From Caryophanales bacterium (GTDB lineage Bacteria > Bacillota > Bacilli > Paenibacillales > CANHCR01), in NCBI GenBank assembly GCA_947459205.1, contig CANHCR010000026.1:1-33902 (forward strand): a DNA stretch of 33,902 bases, given 5' to 3'. Every line of letters begins with the position of its first letter. The first letter of the stretch is position 1. Position numbers and translations under genes: made by a program. Positions 8,949-20,350 of the stretch are shown in pieces. The notes under the pieces were generated by a model, which saw only the letters and a program-made list of their open reading frames with translations, ran no database searches and was not told the DNA's origin.

Positions 8949-9551
8949 TTACACTTCAAGCACAAACATCTCATGATGAAGTTCTTTGAGACGCTCCTTG
9001 TGTTCGTATACTTTCACATCGTCATTTTTTGTCATTGCTTCATAAAGACAGGCGAGTTCGTAATCAATTTCGAGTTTTAAGACAGGAATACGTTGCTCGA
9101 TTCGCTTCGAACGCAGTGCCTTCTTGATGTCATCTGTTGAGATCGACATCGCCTTTTCGAACAAGATGCGATGTTCCACTCCGCTAATCGAAACTTTTTT
9201 CACCAATTCACCAAACATGATATTCTCAATCAATATTTCCTGCTGCATGAACCGCTTGACCACTGCATGACCACGTGTCATGTCGATCATTTTTTCCATC
9301 AGAGTCACTAACCGGTCATCCGCCAACAAACATTCACCGACCATTTTGAACCGTTGCCCCATCCGCAAAAATGTCATTTGCACCATCCGTTCTCCCGACT
9401 GAATCGAAACGATAAATTGTCCCTCGTTTTCTGACCAGTACAAGGAATAACCAGAGTAAATGAGCGATTTGACGAAATCTCGAATTTGTGCGCGATCAAA
9501 ACGGAGCTCCAAATTGCAATACTCAACTTCATAAGGTTGATTCATCATCAT
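8949..9551 (-). CDS. Unknown 200-aa cytoplasmic protein, possibly catabolite controlled
   Basis: I do not recognise the family. The protein is soluble-looking, with no signal peptide or membrane segment. The N-terminal part looks alpha/beta (LELRFDRAQIRDFVKSLIYS), the middle is methionine rich (about 75-110), and the C-terminal third is helical and charged (KALRSKRIEQRIPVLKLEID). Start ATG 9551 is 6 nt after GGGAGG. It is transcribed alone, between its own promoter and terminator, and diverges from yktB across a region with a cre box. Confidence 0.8.
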   Translation of the reverse strand: MMMNQPYEVEYCNLELRFDRAQIRDFVKSLIYSGYSLYWSENEGQFIVSIQSGERMVQMTFLRMGQRFKMVGECLLADDRLVTLMEKMIDMTRGHAVVKRFMQQEILIENIMFGELVKKVSISGVEHRILFEKAMSISTDDIKKALRSKRIEQRIPVLKLEIDYELACLYEAMTKNDDVKVYEHKERLKELHHEMFVLEV

Positions 9552-10385: not shown

Positions 10386-10601
10386 TTATACTGTCAAACC
10401 ACGCACTTGATCAGCGGTCAAACCTGTTAAATCGGCAATTCTCTCCAATGTAAATGTTCCGTCGGCAAGCAACCGTCTTGCCAACGCGATTTGACTTTCT
10501 AGTTTGCCCTCTAGTAGTGCCTGTTCCCGTACCTCGCGAAACGTGCGTTGATAATATGTCTCCACTGTTTCAGACACTTTTCCTTCTTCTCCACGCTTCA
10601 T
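10386..10601 (-). CDS. Possible internally initiated Rpn C-terminal protein (71 aa)
   Basis: Inside the frameshifted Rpn gene, the downstream frame holds ATG 10601 preceded, 9-10 nt upstream, by GAGGTG, a six-base match to the anti-Shine-Dalgarno sequence. The product would be a 71-aa helical, charged protein starting MKRGEEGKVSE and ending LTGLTADQVRGLTV. In E. coli Rpn genes an internal start is known to make a short C-terminal partner of the nuclease. By analogy this fragment could still be made although the long form is broken. This is inference; the fragment may be debris. Confidence 0.4.
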   Translation of the reverse strand: MKRGEEGKVSETVETYYQRTFREVREQALLEGKLESQIALARRLLADGTFTLERIADLTGLTADQVRGLTV

Positions 10602-11317
10602 TTGCTTAAACACCTCTGCGATTTCGACTTTATAAACCAATCCATCAAAGCATCGTATTCATCATCCGACAGCTTATCAAGGTATCGTGGCAACTCTTTC
10701 AAACGACGAATCGTTTCAATGTGATGAACTTCTAATACTTGCTCAATCCAAAACACTTTACTCATGCAACTACGCATCGACTGAAGTTCGTCGGCAGGCA
10801 ACCGATGTACATCGAGAAGTTGCACGAGTTGATGTTTAATAACAGACTCATCACCCCATTCTGCAGTTATGTCTCTCGACAACGAAATTCGCTCATGCCA
10901 ACCCCGCCATGGATACAAACCGTTATAGAGCACCACTCTTTTCACTGTTGGCAATCGCAGTTGGTCGGGACGAGGCGCTTCAGCAAGATCTAATCGCCAA
11001 GCATCAATTTTTGACTGCATTGCCTGAAGTTCATATTCAAGAAAACGCAAATCAATAATCGGATCTTCGGTTCGCTGAAATTCCACCATCACTAACCATT
11101 CTCTTGTAATGCCATTCAATTCGATAACGAAAAGTACATATTCCGTCTCCAATGAGGTGACATCCAGCACGGTCGATTCCCGCGGTAAGCCCATGAAATC
11201 ATACAAAAAACCAAGGAAGACTTGAAGTTTACGAAACAATCTTTTGTACCCTTTGTCGTGCACTTGGTACAACTTTTCCGGGGCATCTTCTGTCGCGTCA
11301 AAAACGTAAGTTTGCAA
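10386..11317 (-). pseudogene. Rpn-type PD-(D/E)XK nuclease/transposase gene, frameshifted
   Basis: Rpn proteins are PD-(D/E)XK nucleases, historically labelled putative transposases and linked to RecA-independent recombination and, for some, phage defence. The N-terminal frame (down to the stop at 10598) begins FDATEDAPEKLYQVHDKGYK and has the nuclease-like WLVMVEFQ (E-x-Q). Near 10635 the downstream frame must be entered by a -1 shift: that frame continues as VYKVEIAEVFKQMKRGEEGK and ends with a LARRLLADGTF...ADLTGLT motif shared with the intact Rpn gene at 30351. No slippery heptamer is visible, so a mutational frameshift is most likely. A TTG at 11317 is the favoured start (AGGGG 8 nt upstream), just after the preceding gene. 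Confidence 0.75.
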
Positions 11318-11330
11318 GCTAACAGCCCCT

Positions 11331-12107
11331 CTAATATGAAGTATACAATATTTCATTCAGTTTTGAAGTCGATAATGCGTATAATGTATTGGTCCAGATA
11401 CCAACTGATTCTGCTCGCATACAAGTAATTAAACCTTCATCAATCACAATATTTCCATACTCCGCATCGTTTCTACCACTTTGATCAGAGTTGGGAAAGG
11501 AAAATTCGAATTCATCGCCGACCGCGAGTTGTAGATCTCGCTGCAGTTGTTCCATCATCACCGACTGTTTCCAACGTTTGAAGGATGTCTCATCCGAGAG
11601 CAGTTTCACTTTCGTTTGCTGAAATAGTTCAGCCCGGTTTCCACTCAACCAACGATTTTCTGCAGCGTAGTACATCGTCAGCGATGATCTGCTCGTTAAT
11701 TGATATACATTGCCCGCTCGATCAGTAGCAGAGAAGTTTCGTTTCGCTTGCACATTGCGTTTCGGCTCACCGTATGCGCCATTACCGGCAGCCACCTCAT
11801 GAAAAGGTACCATGGTGTATCCATCGTGTTCAACGATGACCATTAACGCAAGATGCTTCTGAGCACGAACTGCAATTGAACCAAAATTGAGGTTTGACAG
11901 GCTGCGGTAAAAACGATCAATCACCGCAGCTTCCCCCAACCCTTGTGACATAACAAACGACGCATCTTCTGTCGCTGATTGTAACATGCGCTCAAGCCAA
12001 ATCATTGACTGTTCGTCGCGAGACCATTGTTGCAATTGCCAATCTAACTGCAATTGAAACGGACTAATGATAATGACCCAAAGCAATGCGAAATCAGTGA
12101 GGCGCAT
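11331..12107 (-). CDS. Unknown membrane-anchored protein of the Tad-type operon (258 aa)
   Basis: No family recognised. The N-terminus is a single hydrophobic segment (about residues 5-20, FALLWVIIISPFQLQL) and the rest is predicted outside the membrane. It resembles the small minor-pilin or TadE/TadG-like proteins that follow the platform gene in Tad loci, but no sequence motif proves it. ATG 12107 lies 14 nt inside the previous gene, so translation is coupled. It is the last clear structural gene before the Rpn pseudogene. Confidence 0.7.
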   Translation of the reverse strand: MRLTDFALLWVIIISPFQLQLDWQLQQWSRDEQSMIWLERMLQSATEDASFVMSQGLGEAAVIDRFYRSLSNLNFGSIAVRAQKHLALMVIVEHDGYTMVPFHEVAAGNGAYGEPKRNVQAKRNFSATDRAGNVYQLTSRSSLTMYYAAENRWLSGNRAELFQQTKVKLLSDETSFKRWKQSVMMEQLQRDLQLAVGDEFEFSFPNSDQSGRNDAEYGNIVIDEGLITCMRAESVGIWTNTLYALSTSKLNEILYTSY

Positions 12108-12591
12108 TTTTCACAATTCCGCCATATGGCAGCCAGACAAGCGGTACAGAATCTTGGTTACCTGCTGTTTCCTCACTTTTTACCGTGACATAGAATTCAT
12201 CACCAGCGGCGAAGTAATACGTGCCGTCCGAATCAGCATCTTCGTAATCATCGGCAGGAAACAACACTTCAAGAATTTGTGGATTGTAATACTCTTCCAT
12301 ACTCTCAATCATATCTCCATTCTCTTTACTCGTTATCCAACGTTTTTTCACATGTTTCAAATCCACGCGAATCGACAATCCGCTTGTCGCCAGCTGTTCT
12401 TCAAATTCCCGATACATCGGAGCGCTCAAAAACCCTTTCGCACATACATCGTCGACAAAACGCGTTACTGCTTGTTGCGTCATCAAAAATATTAACTGTT
12501 GCTGTCTGTCTAATGAGGCTGTGAGCGGATAAAGGTACAATAAAATAGCGCTCACGACAACAGCTACGACGAATGACAAACTATCTTTCAA
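12094..12591 (-). CDS. Unknown membrane-anchored protein of the Tad-type operon (165 aa)
   Basis: No family recognised. It has one N-terminal membrane segment (about 5-22, LSFVVAVVVSAILLYLYPL), then a helical part with TQQAVTRFVDDVCAKG and an acidic, tyrosine-rich C-terminal half (EDADSDGTYYF, residues about 120-140). The layout is that of a pseudopilin or pilus-accessory protein: a short cytoplasmic start, one helix and an extracellular domain. The start is TTG 12591, 6 nt after the upstream stop, and its end overlaps the next gene. Confidence 0.7.
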   Translation of the reverse strand: MKDSLSFVVAVVVSAILLYLYPLTASLDRQQQLIFLMTQQAVTRFVDDVCAKGFLSAPMYREFEEQLATSGLSIRVDLKHVKKRWITSKENGDMIESMEEYYNPQILEVLFPADDYEDADSDGTYYFAAGDEFYVTVKSEETAGNQDSVPLVWLPYGGIVKNAPH

Positions 12592-12597
12592 ACGGAA

Positions 12598-12774
12598 TCA
12601 CGCTCCGCCCACACGTTTTAGCATAATCGTTTGCTGTCCGCCTGCCACTTTGGCGAATGATTCAATGCCAACGCGATCTTGTTCAAACAAAGCCATTGCG
12701 AGCGGTATTGCGCTGAGAAATAAAATGCAGGCTGCAATCAACGTTAACGCCGCACCAGTGGTCACCTCGTTCAT
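12598..12774 (-). CDS. Small membrane protein of the Tad-type operon (58 aa)
   Basis: A 58-codon frame in the gap between two operon genes. It reads MNEVTTGAALTLIAACILFL at the start, giving one membrane helix (about residues 8-30), followed by a short polar tail with VAGGQQTIMLKRVGGA. It begins 7 nt after the stop of the pilin-like gene and ends 6 nt before the next start, with no strong ribosome binding site, so it is probably translated by coupling. Its size and place suggest a small pilin-like or assembly subunit. The function is unproven. Confidence 0.65.
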   Translation of the reverse strand: MNEVTTGAALTLIAACILFLSAIPLAMALFEQDRVGIESFAKVAGGQQTIMLKRVGGA

Positions 12775-12781
12775 CTGCCAA

Positions 12782-13243
12782 TTAACTCGTTTTCTGAGTT
12801 AAGACAATGGCACGCACAACACGGTTGCTATCATAAATCAGTTGCGATTTAAATTGAGCAATTGGATTGACATAATCGACATGTGCATCGTCATATGCGT
12901 TGCTGAGATCGGTGACCCCTGCGGCGCCCACCACACCAAGTGAACTCACTACTTTGCCGTACCAAATACCTGTCGTATTTTTACCAGTTTTGACACTTAC
13001 GCCGAACTGCGGATTGGTGGCATATTTGCGGATGGCATTCATTACTTGACTGCCAGACACCGTTTTTTGGTCATAAGCCGAAAATTGCACGGTCGCCATA
13101 TCGTTTTGCAAGTCTGAGAATCCTTTTTGCGCTTGCGAAGCCGCCTCTTGTCCGGATTGAAATACGATTACCCCCAACGTGATAATGGCTATGGTGATCA
13201 ACACGGCCGCAGCGATCATTAAAGCTTTAACTCCATTTTCCAT
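12782..13243 (-). CDS. Pilin-like protein of the Tad-type operon (153 aa)
   Basis: The protein starts MENGVKALMIAAAVLITIAI: a seven-residue polar leader followed by a long hydrophobic helix (about 8-28), and then a soluble domain of about 120 residues with QAQKGFSDLQND and a GKNTTGIWYG segment. This is the plan of a type IV pilin-like subunit placed directly after the TadBC platform, so it is the best candidate for the major exported subunit. It lacks the canonical Flp prepilin cleavage pattern (G before a +5 Glu), so the processing route is unclear. GAGGAGAG 9 nt upstream supports ATG 13243, the strongest such site in this part of the operon. Confidence 0.65.
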   Translation of the reverse strand: MENGVKALMIAAAVLITIAIITLGVIVFQSGQEAASQAQKGFSDLQNDMATVQFSAYDQKTVSGSQVMNAIRKYATNPQFGVSVKTGKNTTGIWYGKVVSSLGVVGAAGVTDLSNAYDDAHVDYVNPIAQFKSQLIYDSNRVVRAIVLTQKTS

Positions 13244-13258
13244 GAATAAATCTCTCCT

Positions 13259-14989
13259 CTAAAGTGTTTGAAATTGTTGATAATACGTTTGCATCTGCTG
13301 CATACCGACGAACATCATGGGAATGAGCAAATAAATAAAAATGACGGCATAGAGTGGCACAAAACCAATTAATTTGCCCCACGCTGATTTGGCTGCGATA
13401 TTTTTTTCAAACTGTAACTTACGTTGTTCGTGAATAAACGCTCGGTCGCTATTTAGATCATCGAATGCAACACGCAAGTCGACGCGCTCAGCCGCTTCAA
13501 TCAACTGTTCGACGATTTGTCGGAATGGTTCAAAAGCAACTTGGTCGCGCAGTTCTTCAAGCGCTTGCCGTCCACCCGCACCGAACGAGAGGAGACACTG
13601 TTGCAACGGTGTCTGGAAATGCTGGGCAAAACGCAACATCCACTCGAGTACGTGTTCGACGTTCATCCGCTCCATCGGCGTTAAAATAGTGAGTAAGGTC
13701 TCAAATTGTTCGACTTCACCGGCAAGCGCGAATTTACGCATTCCTCTTCGAAACATCAACAAAAACAACGGAAGCAAATAGGCGAAACAGACGATGAAGC
13801 AACAAGCGATAAACTGCAGGACTGTAAATGATGAGAAGGATACAAGACATACAGCGGTGGATAGTAGACCTGTAAGTATTGCGTAAATAAGGCGACGCAA
13901 ATAAAAAAGTTCGACTTCTGCTTGCTCGCCGAGCAAAATCAACTGACTGCGCATCCACTCATATTTGGCCGCTCCCGGATTCGGCATCCAGCGAATCAGA
14001 ACAACACGTATCCATCGCGAGCGAAACAATCGTTTTTCTAAAGACATAGATGGCGATGATCCAGCGCTCTCGCCCCACTCCAATACGTGTAACTGTCGCA
14101 CCAATACAAAGCATAAAAAACTCGTCACATAAATGGCGATTTCGCACAAAAATCCATGCCCGCTCGCATAGAACTCTCCCATCCCTGGGAAACTGTCACT
14201 TGCCCAGCGAGCAAGTGGCGCCAGCGACAACAAAGGTAAGACAGTGATGGTTTGCAAACTTTGAAGCAGAAAACTCAAGCGCTGTCTACGCACGTGCTCC
14301 ATCTCGATTTCCCCAATAAGACCGGCCAAAGATTTTTGAAAGAGTGAACCATCGCTTAATGTTCGGTCACCAAATTCAAAAACCAAGTAAGCAACGCCAG
14401 CCAATGCCTGCAAATATTTGTTAGGCGCCGTTTCGTAATACTCACCGATGGCCGTTTGCGGATGATGAGAGGCAAGACACTCCGCTATTTTTAATGCATG
14501 CGTTTTTGCTACATTCGGCGCCTCTGCTGCTGCCTCGTAAATCGCTTCATACACCATTTGATGACGATGATAGCGCCTGCGAATTTGTGCAATCAATCCA
14601 GTGAGCTGCCTAAGTAACCTCATCTCTAATCGACGAATCAAGATATCGGACAAAAACCCGTAAATATAGACCGTACTGAACAGCAGCAGCATCAATGAAA
14701 ACACATCGCGGTTTATGCTAAGGACTACCACCCATATCGTCAAAAAACTAAGGATAACGAGCAAAAAGTAGCGGACTGACTGAAGCCGGATACTATGTTC
14801 GTCGTCTGCTTGAATCATCCGGATGCGGTGCTGGATATCCAGTAGAATCGAACGAAGCAACGGACGGCGCACACAAAACTCATATAAGACCATCAAGAAG
14901 CGATACAGATGTTGACGCCATGCGATTCGCTCTGTCAGGCCCTCGCGGCTAGCTCGTCTCAATCGTTTCGTTCGAAACATTCGTTTCAT
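13259..14989 (-). CDS. Tad-type membrane platform, TadB-TadC fusion
   Basis: A 576-aa polytopic protein. Membrane segments appear near residues 70-115, 240-300, 365-412 and 540-565. Two GspF-like (T2SSF) halves are visible: one around residues 115-300 and one around 415-570, the second ending with the hydrophobic VPLYAVIFIYLLIPMMFVGM. Standard Tad systems split these into TadB and TadC (about 300 aa each), so this looks like a natural fusion. It would form the inner platform driven by the TadA ATPase encoded just upstream. ATG 14989 follows GAGGTAGGTG and lies 41 nt inside the TadA gene. Confidence 0.75.
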   Translation of the reverse strand: MKRMFRTKRLRRASREGLTERIAWRQHLYRFLMVLYEFCVRRPLLRSILLDIQHRIRMIQADDEHSIRLQSVRYFLLVILSFLTIWVVVLSINRDVFSLMLLLFSTVYIYGFLSDILIRRLEMRLLRQLTGLIAQIRRRYHRHQMVYEAIYEAAAEAPNVAKTHALKIAECLASHHPQTAIGEYYETAPNKYLQALAGVAYLVFEFGDRTLSDGSLFQKSLAGLIGEIEMEHVRRQRLSFLLQSLQTITVLPLLSLAPLARWASDSFPGMGEFYASGHGFLCEIAIYVTSFLCFVLVRQLHVLEWGESAGSSPSMSLEKRLFRSRWIRVVLIRWMPNPGAAKYEWMRSQLILLGEQAEVELFYLRRLIYAILTGLLSTAVCLVSFSSFTVLQFIACCFIVCFAYLLPLFLLMFRRGMRKFALAGEVEQFETLLTILTPMERMNVEHVLEWMLRFAQHFQTPLQQCLLSFGAGGRQALEELRDQVAFEPFRQIVEQLIEAAERVDLRVAFDDLNSDRAFIHEQRKLQFEKNIAAKSAWGKLIGFVPLYAVIFIYLLIPMMFVGMQQMQTYYQQFQTL

Positions 14990-16733
14990 CACCTACCTCA
15001 TCGCCCCAATATTGATTGCAAAATTGGATAAATTGCAGGCGATCGGCAGCATTCATCTGTTCAAGCATTGCCCGTTTCGATGCCAAAGTGAGCGGTTTTC
15101 CAGGGATATAAGTTTGATTGCGCCAAATCGCTACATCGCGGTCGACAAACGAATATGAACCTTCACCAGTTAGTGGTACACATTCCGTCACTCGCTCGAT
15201 GTATCGACGCCCATCGATGTCGCGCCGCAAATGAACATTAAAATGGAGCACCGACACTACCTGCTGTTCCGCCATCTTTTCCTGTGAAAAGACACCCGTT
15301 TTCAGCAATGAATTGCGCAGCGAAAAGATCAAATCGGAAAACGTTTTGGCGTGATGCGTAAACAAAGTAAACAAACTGGCGACCTGTGCCGCTTGAATCA
15401 TCCACGCCGCCACGGCATCGCTCGCGACCTCGCCGATAATGTTGACTGTACCGTCCGTCTTTTTTTGCACATCTAAGCCTTGCTGACCGCTAATTTCTTC
15501 CGTCTCGCGAAAAGACAAGATGTTTCGCTCCGGGTAGAGTGAGCGTAACCGCAATTCAAACGCCATTTCCTGCACACGGATGTTGTATGCCTCATCAATC
15601 TGCTCGACAAGTGCCATCAATAGCGTCGTTTTACCGCTGCCTTGTGCACCTGTCACTGCGGTGACACGTGCCCCTTTGATGAGGTAGGTCAGCAATTGAA
15701 TGAGGAAAGTTGCCTCCTCATCACGGAGCAACTGTTCAAGCGAAACATGACGAGTGTCGAATTTTCGCACAAAAAACGCCCACGATTCGGAAAACGGCGG
15801 CCTCACAACGACCACCCGACTGCCGTCTGCCATTTGGTTCACTTTGTACCCATTGCGCTCGGACAATTGTCCAGGGTAATTGAATTTGTAGATGTTTTGA
15901 CAAACGCGCTTCAACTCCTCCGCCGATCCAAATGACAGGCATTGCATGTGAATCGATTTGCCGCGAAAGAAAATCCAAATACTGTCGTAGTCGTAGGCAC
16001 CGCGGCGCAATCCTTCCTCATCGCTCGAACGATCGCCATAAAATGAGGGCATGCCAGACACGCCACCAGACACGCCGTCAATCGCCATATCACGAAGTTC
16101 ATCGACCGCGCCAAATCCGAGCATTTGCCGATACAATGTTTGTGTGATGAGCATCAATTGATCGCTAGGAGTCATATGGGGCCGTTCGCGTGTGTATAGA
16201 CGGCGAACATCATCGGCCGTCAATTTGTTACTAGTCAACGTCATTTTATCTAGCATCACACTGAGCGCCTGCATGCCGTGCTTCTTTTTGAAGTTGTACA
16301 ATAAAATATCAAACTGTATCTGATCAGTGAGTCGCTCGCGCATGGAGGTAGGCAGAAACCGTTGGTACGTTTCATCATCCCAGCGAAAGGCATGCATCAA
16401 CTCATCGAAAATAAACTGCAACACAAATTGTTTATCTTGTACATTACCGCCCGTACAACCGCTAATCGCTTTTTTTATCGCGGTTCGCCGGTTACGAAGC
16501 CGTTGGTACTCTTCCTCGGAAACACCGAACGTTCGCAAATCGGCATAGAGAGTATCCTGCAAGACGGTTCTTAAGTGGACTTTCAATTGCGTCCAATCGT
16601 GAGCGGTCTTCGTGGACGGAGACACGGTTTTCGGCCGCTTACTGCGCACGGTGAACATTCTCAGAAAAATATAGAGGGCAATGAATGTGGCAAACAAGCA
16701 AATCAGCAAAAAATGAAGGGATGGCGTCAACAA
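14949..16733 (-). CDS. tadA: TadA/CpaF-type secretion ATPase
   Basis: A 594-aa ATPase that would power pilus assembly or secretion. Unusually, residues 5-25 form an N-terminal membrane segment. The CpaF-like N-domain spans about 50-330. The motor domain has Walker A GAQGSGKTT (362-370), a modified Asp box VQEMAFEL (387-394), Walker B NIIGEVA (431-437) and a His box THHAKT (459-464). In canonical CpaF the Walker B is followed by Arg (GEVR); here it is Ala. The start is TTG 16733 with AAGGTG upstream, overlapping the TadZ-like gene by 7 nt. Confidence 0.85.
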   Translation of the reverse strand: MLTPSLHFLLICLFATFIALYIFLRMFTVRSKRPKTVSPSTKTAHDWTQLKVHLRTVLQDTLYADLRTFGVSEEEYQRLRNRRTAIKKAISGCTGGNVQDKQFVLQFIFDELMHAFRWDDETYQRFLPTSMRERLTDQIQFDILLYNFKKKHGMQALSVMLDKMTLTSNKLTADDVRRLYTRERPHMTPSDQLMLITQTLYRQMLGFGAVDELRDMAIDGVSGGVSGMPSFYGDRSSDEEGLRRGAYDYDSIWIFFRGKSIHMQCLSFGSAEELKRVCQNIYKFNYPGQLSERNGYKVNQMADGSRVVVVRPPFSESWAFFVRKFDTRHVSLEQLLRDEEATFLIQLLTYLIKGARVTAVTGAQGSGKTTLLMALVEQIDEAYNIRVQEMAFELRLRSLYPERNILSFRETEEISGQQGLDVQKKTDGTVNIIGEVASDAVAAWMIQAAQVASLFTLFTHHAKTFSDLIFSLRNSLLKTGVFSQEKMAEQQVVSVLHFNVHLRRDIDGRRYIERVTECVPLTGEGSYSFVDRDVAIWRNQTYIPGKPLTLASKRAMLEQMNAADRLQFIQFCNQYWGDEVGDETNVSNETIETS

Positions 16734-17542
16734 CTGGGCACCTTATCAAATAGCGCTTGTACACATGTTCTAAATTCTAGCAAACAACGCGCCAGTAGCC
16801 CCCGGTCCGTTCGTTCCGAGCGAAATAAATGTCTCAAAAAGAGTTCGGCAAACTCACCCTCGTTTGCAGCATTTCGTAATTCCGTACAATACGGAATCGC
16901 AAACATCGGATAGCGCGCTCCATATATTTTTTTCAGTTGTTGTGCGTTCAAGCGTGCAGATGCGTCATAATCGGCGACAATAAATAGCGTCCGTTCCGGC
17001 CACTGATGTTGTTTGCTATGAAATTTTTCGAAAAAATGACGCAGTCGGTGCTCGTTTTGTTCCAAGCAGACGACCAGTACATCGACTTCATCAATCGTCG
17101 CAGAGTATTGCGGATCTACGACAACATCAGGCAAACGAATGAGCGATGCGGGATATTCTGCTCGTAATTGGCGGAGCAACTGGCGAATAACGGCAGGGCG
17201 TAATGACGGCAACTGATGCAGACGACTTTCCGGTAACCAATCGAGCCGACCTTTTAAAATCGATTGGACATAGTCGCGAACATGCACTTGAGAAACATAG
17301 CCATGTGATAGCGCTCGAAGCAGGCCGTCAACCCCTGCACGTCCGGCAAAACTTTCTGGCAAGTGAGCGAACGACGGCATGCGCCGCGCAAGCATTGCCT
17401 CCATGCTCGTTGGTGAATCGCACAAATGGCTTAGCAATACGTGTTCATTATTGTTGAGTGCTACGGTCAGTGCGCAACCCAGCTGAATCGAATCAACTGC
17501 GGGCATGCCGCGATACATACCTAAAAAACCGATGACTGTCAT
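16727..17542 (-). CDS. TadZ/CpaE-like localisation protein with degenerate P-loop
   Basis: A 271-aa protein. The N-terminus reads MTVIGFLGMYRGMPAVDS, aligning by pattern with the MinD/ParA-type starts of TadZ proteins, where a Gly-rich loop with Lys and Ser/Thr would follow the first strand. Here that loop has no Lys. A later strand TIDEVDVLVVCLEQN fits the fold. In Tad systems TadZ proteins place the machine at a site in the cell. Position between the kinase and TadA genes (ATGA overlap with the kinase gene, 7-nt overlap with tadA) supports the assignment. It probably does not hydrolyse ATP. Confidence 0.6.
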   Translation of the reverse strand: MTVIGFLGMYRGMPAVDSIQLGCALTVALNNNEHVLLSHLCDSPTSMEAMLARRMPSFAHLPESFAGRAGVDGLLRALSHGYVSQVHVRDYVQSILKGRLDWLPESRLHQLPSLRPAVIRQLLRQLRAEYPASLIRLPDVVVDPQYSATIDEVDVLVVCLEQNEHRLRHFFEKFHSKQHQWPERTLFIVADYDASARLNAQQLKKIYGARYPMFAIPYCTELRNAANEGEFAELFLRHLFRSERTDRGLLARCLLEFRTCVQALFDKVPSC

Positions 17543-19026
17543 GAGCGAATCCTCTCTTTTTTTCGATTAGCGATCCATTTTTGCAACCATGCGCCAAGCC
17601 GACCGCCCGAGCCATCGGCGCTCGCTGTTTCTAATCCTAGCAACTTGCTGACAAACGAAACGACCTCTTCCCCCGGTTGAAGCGGATTCGGACAAAACGG
17701 TGCATCATGAATCTGCGCATCCGTTAAATGTACTCTGCTAAGCGCAGTCGCAGTCTGTTGCGAAGCGGCTAGCATCAGCAATACTCTCATTCGTTCTTGC
17801 AAAGATGGCGGATACTCGCTGTATTGCATATTCTCACTGTGCGCCAGACTCACACCGAGCAAACCGCCAAACGCCGTCACCACTGGTACATCCGCACGCG
17901 CGAATTCACCCTCCTGCGCTACACTCAACTCGCTGCCAAAATCAAACACCAAATCGTCGTAACCAGCATAGAGCCAAACCGCCATATCCAAACTTTGCAC
18001 GTCCAAAAAGTAGTCGACACCAAATTTATGCGCAGTCGCTCGTTGCTCACGTAACATACGACCGAGAATGGGGTAGTTATTCTGTTCAATGAGCGCAACA
18101 CGTCGTCCGGCATGCGCCAAACTATGAGCAATCATCAGCGCGCCATGTGTGCAACCAGAACGTCCTGCGATTCCTCTGCAAACGATGACTTTCGTCGCAC
18201 TTTTCCTTCTGCTCTCGGGAAAACTGTGTAGCGGGAAGCGTAGTTTTTGCTCGATGACACGCAATGCTTCCATCAACACTGAAGCGGAAGCAGGACGCAC
18301 TGTTGGATCAGGATGTAGCAGTTTTTCTAGCAGTTGCACAACAAACGCGGGAACATGTTGCAGATCGATCGAATCATCCGTGCCATGAAACCCGGCGAAA
18401 TTGCCGCCACTAACCAAGTAATACATCAGCGCACCGAGTGAATATAAATCCGAACGTGCGTCACAAGATTTTCCCGCCCATTGTTCAGGCGAGGCGAAAC
18501 CGGCCGAGGCAAACGGTAACGTTTCACCCATCCGCATGGATGACGATTGCCGCGCAATCCCGAAATCAATCAATTTGACGCGCCACCGTTCATCGACCAT
18601 CAGATTGTCCGGTTTTAAATCGCGATGAACAATCGCAGGTTCCACCTGTTCATGCATATAGACATACAAATCACACACTTGGATTGCAATCTGGATGACC
18701 GTTTGTAGTTCAATCGAGCGACCGAGACGCTCGAACTTCGCACGCAACGTTTCACCGACAACATAGTCCATCACGATGCACAGTTGGTTTTGTTGGTGCC
18801 GTGCGAACACATCAACTACACGCGGTATGTGCGGATGATCAAGGCTACTCAACATGCGTGCCTCCGCAAGTTGCGTTTGAATGTCAGCACCTTCCACCAC
18901 TTTCACTGCCCATCGCTTGCCGTTTAATTTGCAATCCTCCGCCAAGTAGACGGTTCCCATACTGCCTTTGCCGATCACTTTCAACAAGCGGTAGCGCTCA
19001 TTCAACAATTCGGAAGATAGGTTCAC
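17539..19026 (-). CDS. Serine/threonine protein kinase fused to a MinD-like domain
   Basis: The 495-aa protein has an N-terminal Hanks-type kinase (about 10-265) with GKGSMGTV (19-26), Lys42 in WAVKVVE, HRDLKPDN (134-141) and DFG (154-156), so it should be active. There is no C-terminal membrane helix or PASTA repeat, unlike PrkC. From about residue 272 a second domain begins KVIVCRGIAGRSGCTHGALM, then RRVALIEQN, resembling a MinD/ParA ATPase whose P-loop has lost its Lys. The kinase sits between the FHA gene (GTGA overlap) and the TadZ-like gene (ATGA overlap). This suggests it phosphorylates Tad components read by the FHA protein. Confidence 0.88.
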   Translation of the reverse strand: MNLSSELLNERYRLLKVIGKGSMGTVYLAEDCKLNGKRWAVKVVEGADIQTQLAEARMLSSLDHPHIPRVVDVFARHQQNQLCIVMDYVVGETLRAKFERLGRSIELQTVIQIAIQVCDLYVYMHEQVEPAIVHRDLKPDNLMVDERWRVKLIDFGIARQSSSMRMGETLPFASAGFASPEQWAGKSCDARSDLYSLGALMYYLVSGGNFAGFHGTDDSIDLQHVPAFVVQLLEKLLHPDPTVRPASASVLMEALRVIEQKLRFPLHSFPESRRKSATKVIVCRGIAGRSGCTHGALMIAHSLAHAGRRVALIEQNNYPILGRMLREQRATAHKFGVDYFLDVQSLDMAVWLYAGYDDLVFDFGSELSVAQEGEFARADVPVVTAFGGLLGVSLAHSENMQYSEYPPSLQERMRVLLMLAASQQTATALSRVHLTDAQIHDAPFCPNPLQPGEEVVSFVSKLLGLETASADGSGGRLGAWLQKWIANRKKERIRS

Positions 19027-20231
19027 AGTTCGTCCACCTCTTGCAAAATGAATTGCGCACGACCGACAGCAAGCACATCTCCCACCATAAATGGGTGGAC
19101 TTTATACGGAATAAGCAGTTGATCATTAAGTAACGTGCCATTGCGCGAGCCCAGATCGCGAACGAAGTAGCGGCCCTCGTCGCAAGTGCATTCGACCTGC
19201 AATCTTGAAACAGAAGGTTCCGACAAAACAAAGTTCGCTACCTGCTCATCACGTCCGATGACAAACGGCCAGTGAGATAGTTCGATGCGTTCTCCGCTGT
19301 CTGGGTTGATTAGATAGGGTTGAATTTTACGTAGCGCTGGCGGACGATTGCTTAACACCACGGTGCGATGATAGTAATCATCTTCAATCGCCGGCAATGG
19401 CAGTGGCTCTACATTTTCCGCAAGCGGCAACGAAACCTGTTCAGCAATCACAGCCTCATTGGATCGCACGATAAAACTGATGGCGAACGCCAAGCAAAAT
19501 CCGCTGGAGACAAACAACAAGAATGTATCCCCTGTCCACCACCAAACGCCAAATGCACCGAGCACACCGCACGCTGTCACACTTCGAATCACGTTCGTCC
19601 ATTGTGTCGGTCGCACCAACGGCTTCACAACACTTACAGGTTCCGAACGCTCGTCCCGAACATCAAGTGTCTCAGCCGTCTCGAACACCTGACTCCATTG
19701 AAATGGCGCTCGCAATCCCACATCACCAAGCGCGTTCAGCATCGCTCTTGTCTCGTCGGCAACATACGGTCGCAACTTTTGGCAAAATGCAAGCCACTGT
19801 TCGCCCGAACGTTGTCGTTGCTTCATTTGTAGCGGCAGATGGATGAAAAAATAATGCCCGTTCGACGGCTCCACAAACACATAGTCGGGGTCAAACAAAA
19901 ACTGCTCTTCATGCAGCAAATAACTATCCGACATCTGCAATACGCGTTGCCAACTGTTTAAGAGTCGCAGTAAATCATCATGCCGCAACCGATTACTGCG
20001 CAACACCTGACTAAGCATGCGCTTGCCTTCATGAACGAAATACAGCGACACGAAACCATCGAGTTCGTCACATCGCATGTTCAGTACATGCGGAATGTCA
20101 TGCAACAACTGCATTTGAAACGCGTGGACCATCAAATCATCGCGCGAAAGCGGTCCATCTCTGCCACGCACCATCAATGATTGTCCGTATGTATCTACGA
20201 ATTCACATTCTATGTTTGCTGCAAAAATCAT
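19023..20231 (-). CDS. Membrane FHA-domain protein with N-terminal DUF6382-like domain
   Basis: The 402-aa protein has an N-terminal domain (about 1-175) like the DUF6382 part of Bacillota FHA proteins, two close membrane segments (about 215-260), and a C-terminal FHA domain (about 320-398) with FVIGRDEQVANF, SVSRLQVEC and DLGSRNGTLLND. FHA domains bind phosphothreonine; the usual SRxH motif is SRLQ here. It heads the operon directly after a sigma-A promoter and overlaps the kinase gene by 4 nt, so it is the likely membrane receptor for the kinase. TAGGAG 6 nt before ATG 20231 sets the start. Confidence 0.85.
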   Translation of the reverse strand: MIFAANIECEFVDTYGQSLMVRGRDGPLSRDDLMVHAFQMQLLHDIPHVLNMRCDELDGFVSLYFVHEGKRMLSQVLRSNRLRHDDLLRLLNSWQRVLQMSDSYLLHEEQFLFDPDYVFVEPSNGHYFFIHLPLQMKQRQRSGEQWLAFCQKLRPYVADETRAMLNALGDVGLRAPFQWSQVFETAETLDVRDERSEPVSVVKPLVRPTQWTNVIRSVTACGVLGAFGVWWWTGDTFLLFVSSGFCLAFAISFIVRSNEAVIAEQVSLPLAENVEPLPLPAIEDDYYHRTVVLSNRPPALRKIQPYLINPDSGERIELSHWPFVIGRDEQVANFVLSEPSVSRLQVECTCDEGRYFVRDLGSRNGTLLNDQLLIPYKVHPFMVGDVLAVGRAQFILQEVDEL

Positions 20232-20280
20232 CTCACACTCCTATCTTCTGATTTGGATAATCATTAGATTTTCCTACTAA

Positions 20281-20309
20281 AATATACCATTTCCAATTTA
20301 TGATTTCAA
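20281..20309 (-). promoter_or_regulatory. Promoter of the FHA/kinase/Tad operon
   Basis: On the minus strand, -35 TTGAAA (20309-20304) and -10 TATATT (20286-20281) are separated by exactly 17 nt, in a very AT-rich stretch between an upstream terminator and the FHA gene. No internal terminator was seen down to 10379, so this promoter may drive the whole ten-kilobase block. Confidence 0.65.
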
Positions 20310-20350
20310 TTATTTTCCACTAGTTCAAAAATTGTTCAATAAGTGTCTAC

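Follow-up and report, generated by a model that had tools for sequence, protein, structure and literature searches.

The Tad/Flp (type IVc) pilus, a member of the type IV filament superfamily, is the known system most closely comparable to a nine-gene operon found on the minus strand of a 33,902-nucleotide stretch of DNA (hereafter, the window) from a Caryophanales bacterium placed in the order Paenibacillales (GenBank assembly GCA_947459205.1, contig CANHCR010000026.1). Both possess a TadA/CpaF-type ATPase and a TadZ-like protein, the window operon encodes a putative TadB-like platform, and the relatives of the window operon additionally encode a CpaB/RcpC-like SAF protein. The window machine differs in its single-chain platform, the membrane segment of its TadA and a Ser/Thr kinase fused to a TadZ-like domain; moreover, it shows no prepilin signature, no prepilin peptidase in the locus and no recognisable TadE/TadG-type genes. 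Ordinary Bacillota Tad loci equipped with a kinase and a DUF6382-FHA protein share the kinase-TadZ-like fusion, DUF6382-FHA, TadZ and TadA with the window. However, in those loci the FHA gene comes after TadE and an A24 peptidase, the platform is split into TadB and TadC, and Flp carries the canonical G|xxxxE signature (as seen in the ordinary locus of the window's own genome).

Likeness extends to the type VII secretion systems T7SSc-T7SSj, especially T7SSf, whose TsfJ protein combines DUF6382, two membrane segments and FHA; these systems also feature kinases, phosphatases and a TadZ-like protein, and T7SSg and T7SSh adjoin Tad genes (PMC11217815). That report is the one paper of the literature searched in which DUF6382 is named, for the DUF6382-membrane-FHA layout of TsfJ. 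In contrast to these systems, none of the window operon's genes could be recognised as WXG100 or EssC-type. The Kil apparatus of Myxococcus xanthus is also a Tad-like machine with several FHA proteins and is contact-triggered (PMC8460266). Nevertheless, it belongs to a diderm host, includes a secretin and has FHA fused to the ATPase, while the passages of its account that were consulted describe no kinase-TadZ fusion.

The window machine follows the general scheme of a Tad system. It represents a divergent Tad-like system, here termed type B, and we consider it somewhat more likely than not that this is an ATPase-platform machine of the Paenibacillales controlled by a dedicated Ser/Thr kinase, which would physically form part of its base.

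A kinase fused to a TadZ-like domain

The best evidence for a kinase acting at the machine is its fusion to a TadZ-family domain. This TadZ/ParA-like C-terminal domain was missing from the first-pass annotation of the window, which had described a Tad-type pilus or secretion operon wired to Ser/Thr phosphorylation. The kinase domain (residues ~1-265; Pfam Pkinase 3.3e-37) contains all catalytic motifs, with K42 (VAIK), E55 (alpha-C), D136 (HRD) and D154 (DFG) invariant in 26 sequences, and its AlphaFold2 (AF2) model matches PknB (Z 27); it is a complete Hanks-type Ser/Thr kinase domain and is predicted to be active. The tail (residues ~275-495) is a domain of the ParA/MinD/TadZ superfamily. 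Its family profile matches ordinary TadZ (P 96.8%) as well as Soj, MinD and FleN in the PDB (E 0.0004-0.003), and some family members match CbiA and AAA_31. A structure search with the kinase model was uninformative on the tail, the match list being filled by kinase domains. The P-loop of the tail, GRSGCTH, keeps the glycines and Thr without the lysine, making ATP hydrolysis by the tail doubtful.

The linkage of the kinase with Tad systems is strongly supported by gene neighbourhoods. Among 80 named type B loci (the best 80 of 337 candidate relatives from a scan of named genomes), 38 include a kinase, and all 38 kinases carry the TadZ-like tail. Of 20 ordinary Tad loci from the order, 11 also have a kinase nearby; the kinases beside ordinary loci possess a TadZ-like tail (profile P 97.5%), as do four kinases that neighbour DUF6382-FHA genes in Tad loci from a different Bacillota family. 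The first-pass annotation had held that functional coupling would be weakened if the linkage were confined to this lineage, but for the kinase it recurs in type B loci, in ordinary Tad loci and in that further family. This recurrence, together with the TadZ-family domain inside the kinase, makes it very improbable that a general signalling pair merely lies upstream by chance and is co-transcribed without functional coupling, even though FHA occurs in a type B operon only in the window's genome.

In Caulobacter, CpaE dimers have been fitted into a ring that encircles the CpaF motor, and they change position during piliation (PMC13170226). Similarly, the TadZ-like tail would dock the kinase on a TadZ/TadA ring at the cytoplasmic face, where it may phosphorylate threonines of its own activation loop and/or of TadZ, TadA or the platform. 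The membrane FHA protein of this genome would then bind phosphothreonine and stabilise or recruit the machine, and phosphorylation would gate the place or timing of its activity. As the kinase link recurs widely in related bacteria, phosphorylation probably determines at what time or site the machine is active, and kinase and FHA may gate assembly or export, as the first-pass annotation proposed. A purely spatial role, with the kinase-TadZ fusion and FHA fixing the machine's place and no on/off gating, is unlikely. It accords with TadZ/CpaE being a localisation factor (PMC13170226, PMC6668835) and with the presence of three TadZ-family proteins in one operon (the kinase tail, TadZ and, in relatives, a protein designated X), but a fully conserved catalytic kinase exceeds the needs of a positional marker.

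TadZ-like tails also occur without a kinase domain. One such tail occupies the kinase's position in locus L140, while in L048 (3039-4451) and L051 (12361-13635) the protein in the kinase's place differs in its N-terminal region and has a membrane segment at the C terminus. Separately, contig 47 of the window's genome (G000; locus L183) harbours a run of three kinase-like genes adjoining a gene of protein-phosphatase type, along with long, probably secreted proteins bearing a FGRYN.APILWRVIHKE module.

Operon organisation and machine genes

The nine close-packed genes run from 20231 to 11331, and every junction is an overlap or a gap of at most 15 bases. Genes other than the first, second and fourth were without a useful Pfam match and were identified via relatives. 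The features (window coordinates; aa, amino acids; HMM, hidden Markov model; ORF, open reading frame) are as follows:

20281-20309, minus strand: promoter-like site TTGAAA-17-TATATT with extended -10 (TG) (consensus scan, weak evidence)
19023-20231, minus strand: DUF6382, membrane segment(s) and C-terminal FHA, 402 aa (Pfam, FHA alignment, hydropathy)
17539-19026, minus strand: Ser/Thr kinase fused to a TadZ/CpaE-like ParA/MinD-type domain, 495 aa (Pfam, AF2 model, family profiles)
16727-17542, minus strand: second TadZ-like protein, 271 aa (family alignment, profile against ordinary TadZ)
14949-16733, minus strand: TadA/CpaF-like ATPase, 594 aa (Pfam T2SSE, family profile against CpaF structures)
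13259-14992, minus strand: putative TadB/C-like membrane platform in one chain, 577 aa (TadB profile comparison)
12782-13243, minus strand: pilin-like protein, 153 aa (40-member alignment, AF2 model)
12598-12774, minus strand: 58-aa membrane peptide (position and ORFs of relatives)
12094-12591, minus strand: membrane-anchored protein, 165 aa, a conserved type B core gene (phmmer/HMM matches in type B loci)
11331-12107, minus strand: anchored protein, 258 aa, a conserved type B core gene and the last machine gene (phmmer/HMM matches in type B loci)

Overlaps of 4 bases join FHA to kinase and kinase to TadZ, followed by overlaps of 7 bases between TadZ and TadA, 44 bases between TadA and TadBC (taking the longest start) and 14 bases between the 165-aa and 258-aa genes; the remaining gaps are 6-15 bases. 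ORF junctions and Pfam confirmed the gene order, overlaps and motifs given by the first-pass annotation. Its single promoter is plausible, as the best promoter-like site on the minus strand lies just upstream of gene 1, but such matches are only in mild excess (26 observed against 17.1 +/- 3.8 in shuffles).

The ATPase matches Pfam T2SSE (7.8e-8), CpaF structures (family profile, E 1.4e-11) and ordinary TadA (profile-profile, P 99.1%); it has an N-terminal hydrophobic segment (residues 6-24) and conserved GAQGSGKT and GEV motifs. Four T2SSE-family ATPases are encoded in the window's genome, of which this TadA is the most divergent. The second TadZ-like protein matches the ordinary TadZ profile (P 96.6%). 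In the platform, which has no Pfam T2SSF match, the N-terminal half matches the TadB profile (P 93.5%) and the C-terminal half does so more weakly (P 53.6%).

Close relatives of the window TadA (E <=1e-100) are present in 17 of 41 genomes searched, and type B in 88 of 200 sampled Paenibacillales genomes; a scan of viral contigs returned no relatives of this TadA. Named sources comprise Paenibacillus, Cohnella, Tumebacillus, one Brevibacillus metagenome-assembled genome and one record labelled Neobacillus. The type B order is highly constant: an optional kinase, CpaB/SAF, X (~237 aa), TadZ, TadA, single-chain TadBC and the pilin-like gene, followed by a small anchored protein and two anchored proteins. 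CpaB is present in all 80 named relatives. Compared with them, the window operon is without CpaB and X (profile searches found neither anywhere in its 2.52 Mb, 99% complete genome), its small protein has 58 aa and an FHA gene stands at its head.

Pilin-like subunit and prepilin processing

In the AF2 model (pLDDT 87.9), the pilin-like protein consists of a 54-residue N-terminal helix (residues 2-55) and a beta-rich C-terminal domain, a modelled arrangement that resembles the general layout of type IV pilins. Members of the family (40 aligned) start almost at once with the hydrophobic helix, and none of the 40 shows the signature for prepilin cleavage, in which Gly is followed by Glu at +5. The Pfam scan detected neither a secretin nor a prepilin peptidase in the window operon, which bears out both absences reported by the first-pass annotation. 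Across the 80 type B loci, a prepilin peptidase appears only in a neighbouring ordinary Tad locus (L132) and as a distant gene (L088). Since two are encoded elsewhere in the window's genome (contigs 13 and 35), a peptidase could act in trans, as has been allowed for other systems (PMC6668835). The anchored proteins gave no match to TadE/TadG profiles in a profile comparison.

As neither the canonical pilin signature nor peptidase linkage was found, the system is not classed among canonical Tad pili, and the earlier label “Tad-type pilus” was too strong. Instead, the machine would assemble pilin-like subunits that are anchored in the membrane and undergo no recognisable prepilin cleavage, and it may be peptidase-independent.

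The 58-aa peptide is the positional counterpart of the relatives' ~130-aa second anchored protein, the C-terminal domain being missing in the window copy. In loci L037-L055, this ~130-aa protein (encoded between the pilin-like and 165-aa-type genes) bears the motif set SGAEV...VEVDG...Y.P.Y.RD, which is also present towards the C terminus of the pilin-like protein, and in this it looks like a second subunit.

The FHA protein and the ordinary Tad locus

Gene 1 matches DUF6382 (3.2e-19) and FHA (1.4e-13) in Pfam, and is the sole DUF6382 gene of the window's genome. In the alignment, the phosphothreonine-contact residues GR, SR and NGT are kept, while Gln replaces the usual His after SR; the domain is a predicted phosphothreonine reader. 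FHA-Tad linkage is phylum-wide across Bacillota, in ordinary Tad loci. All 20 DUF6382 loci fetched from the order are ordinary Tad loci, with the gene mostly after TadE and the A24 peptidase, and 11 of the fetched stretches also contain a kinase; outside the order, Tad genes lie beside DUF6382-FHA in 18 of 20 loci (TadA within the fetched stretch in 11). The neighbourhood comparison proposed by the first-pass annotation therefore did link FHA to Tad genes, but with an FHA gene inside the operon in none of the 80 other type B loci. Accordingly, the kinase half of the earlier wiring proposal stands, as a linkage, with strong support, whereas the link of FHA to this machine is seen in one genome.

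The window's genome also encodes an ordinary Tad locus on contig 13, comprising TadZ, TadA, TadB, TadC, a Flp pilin with the canonical signature ALG|TLEILL, an A24 peptidase and TadG-like and TadE-like proteins. Neither FHA nor a kinase is present at this locus. Behind its Tad genes follow a Cu-amine-oxidase-N1 protein (L185:300-1232) and a DUF5704 protein (L185:1229-3913).

Several observations weigh against a kinase-controlled machine as set out above. About half of the type B loci have no kinase, so the kinase is not essential to the machine in general. A kinase-domain tree intended to separate ordinary from type B origin left the window kinase on a long branch without resolution; its origin was settled instead by C-terminal domain scores, which assign the tail to the type B kind (75.7 bits against 7.5 bits for the ordinary kind). 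The pilin-like model matched no PDB fold (best Foldseek E 0.33; VIA-align single-helix only), and “pilin” consequently remains an analogy. DUF6382 is found in 40 of the 41 genomes (41 matches in total) with or without type B, marking DUF6382-FHA as chiefly an ordinary-Tad component. Lastly, no FHA lies within the operon in any of the 80 named type B loci, the window operon being the sole case. FHA as a standard type B component was hence rejected, the single match (L132) coming from a neighbouring ordinary Tad locus.

These FHA distributions raise the alternative that the ordinary Tad system of contig 13 is the target, in trans, of FHA and perhaps also of the kinase, their place in the type B operon being incidental. 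DUF6382-FHA belongs to ordinary Tad loci in relatives, the ordinary locus of this genome is without both genes, and DUF5704 and Cu-amine-oxidase-like genes, which accompany type B in relatives, stand here at the ordinary locus. Action in trans is nonetheless improbable, as 4-base overlaps tie FHA to the kinase gene and the kinase gene to TadZ, and the kinase tail clearly groups with those of type B. The most economical account of the FHA gene is a move from the ordinary locus into the type B operon in this lineage.

DUF5704 as a probable surface partner

At the end of many type B loci stand genes for a Cu-amine-oxidase-N1 protein and a large DUF5704 protein; other loci end with SLH proteins. 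In the 200 genomes of the order, 83 have both type B TadA and DUF5704, 5 have TadA alone, 2 have DUF5704 alone and 110 have neither (Fisher p 2.5e-47, a value that ignores kinship). The two genes are often unlinked (>1 Mb apart in G029, G340, G352 and G396), and their co-occurrence is therefore not just hitch-hiking. The DUF5704 proteins are long and appear to carry signal peptides, and Ig-like domains are present in at least one of them; no paper naming DUF5704 was found in the literature searched. A secreted DUF5704 protein is thus the probable surface partner with which the type B machine would work. The presence of DUF5704 at the ordinary Tad locus in the window's genome suggests that its two Tad systems share or exchange parts.

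A bolder proposal, which we regard as tentative and rather less likely than the kinase-controlled machine itself, is that a Tad-derived machine was freed of prepilin processing, is driven by a kinase turned structural via the TadZ-like fusion, and is dedicated to assembling or displaying DUF5704 on the Gram-positive surface. The kinase-TadZ-family fusion would provide a concrete physical link from Ser/Thr phosphorylation to Tad-type machines across Bacillota, paralleling the kinase/FHA control of type VI and the proposed control of type VII secretion. The analysis further predicts a partner machine for DUF5704, a large secreted family of unknown function.

Borders of the operon

The first-pass annotation had set the operon at 10598-20310. 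Nine of its genes hold, but the tenth (10598-11356, minus strand) is a Transposase_31/YhgA-like (Rpn-type) ORF by Pfam; on account of this match it was rejected as a machine part, and the machine ends at 11331. Behind the Rpn-type ORF, which shares 26 bases with the last machine gene, comes a second ORF in a different frame (10386-10640), as if frameshifted, and a strong terminator-like hairpin lies beyond at 10379-10351. Farther 3' of the operon, the window encodes a 200-aa protein without a Pfam match (8949-9551). It has a counterpart at L042:13231-13893, with the common stretch VEYCNLELRFDR, and this counterpart sits directly 5' of the kinase in the relative's type B locus.

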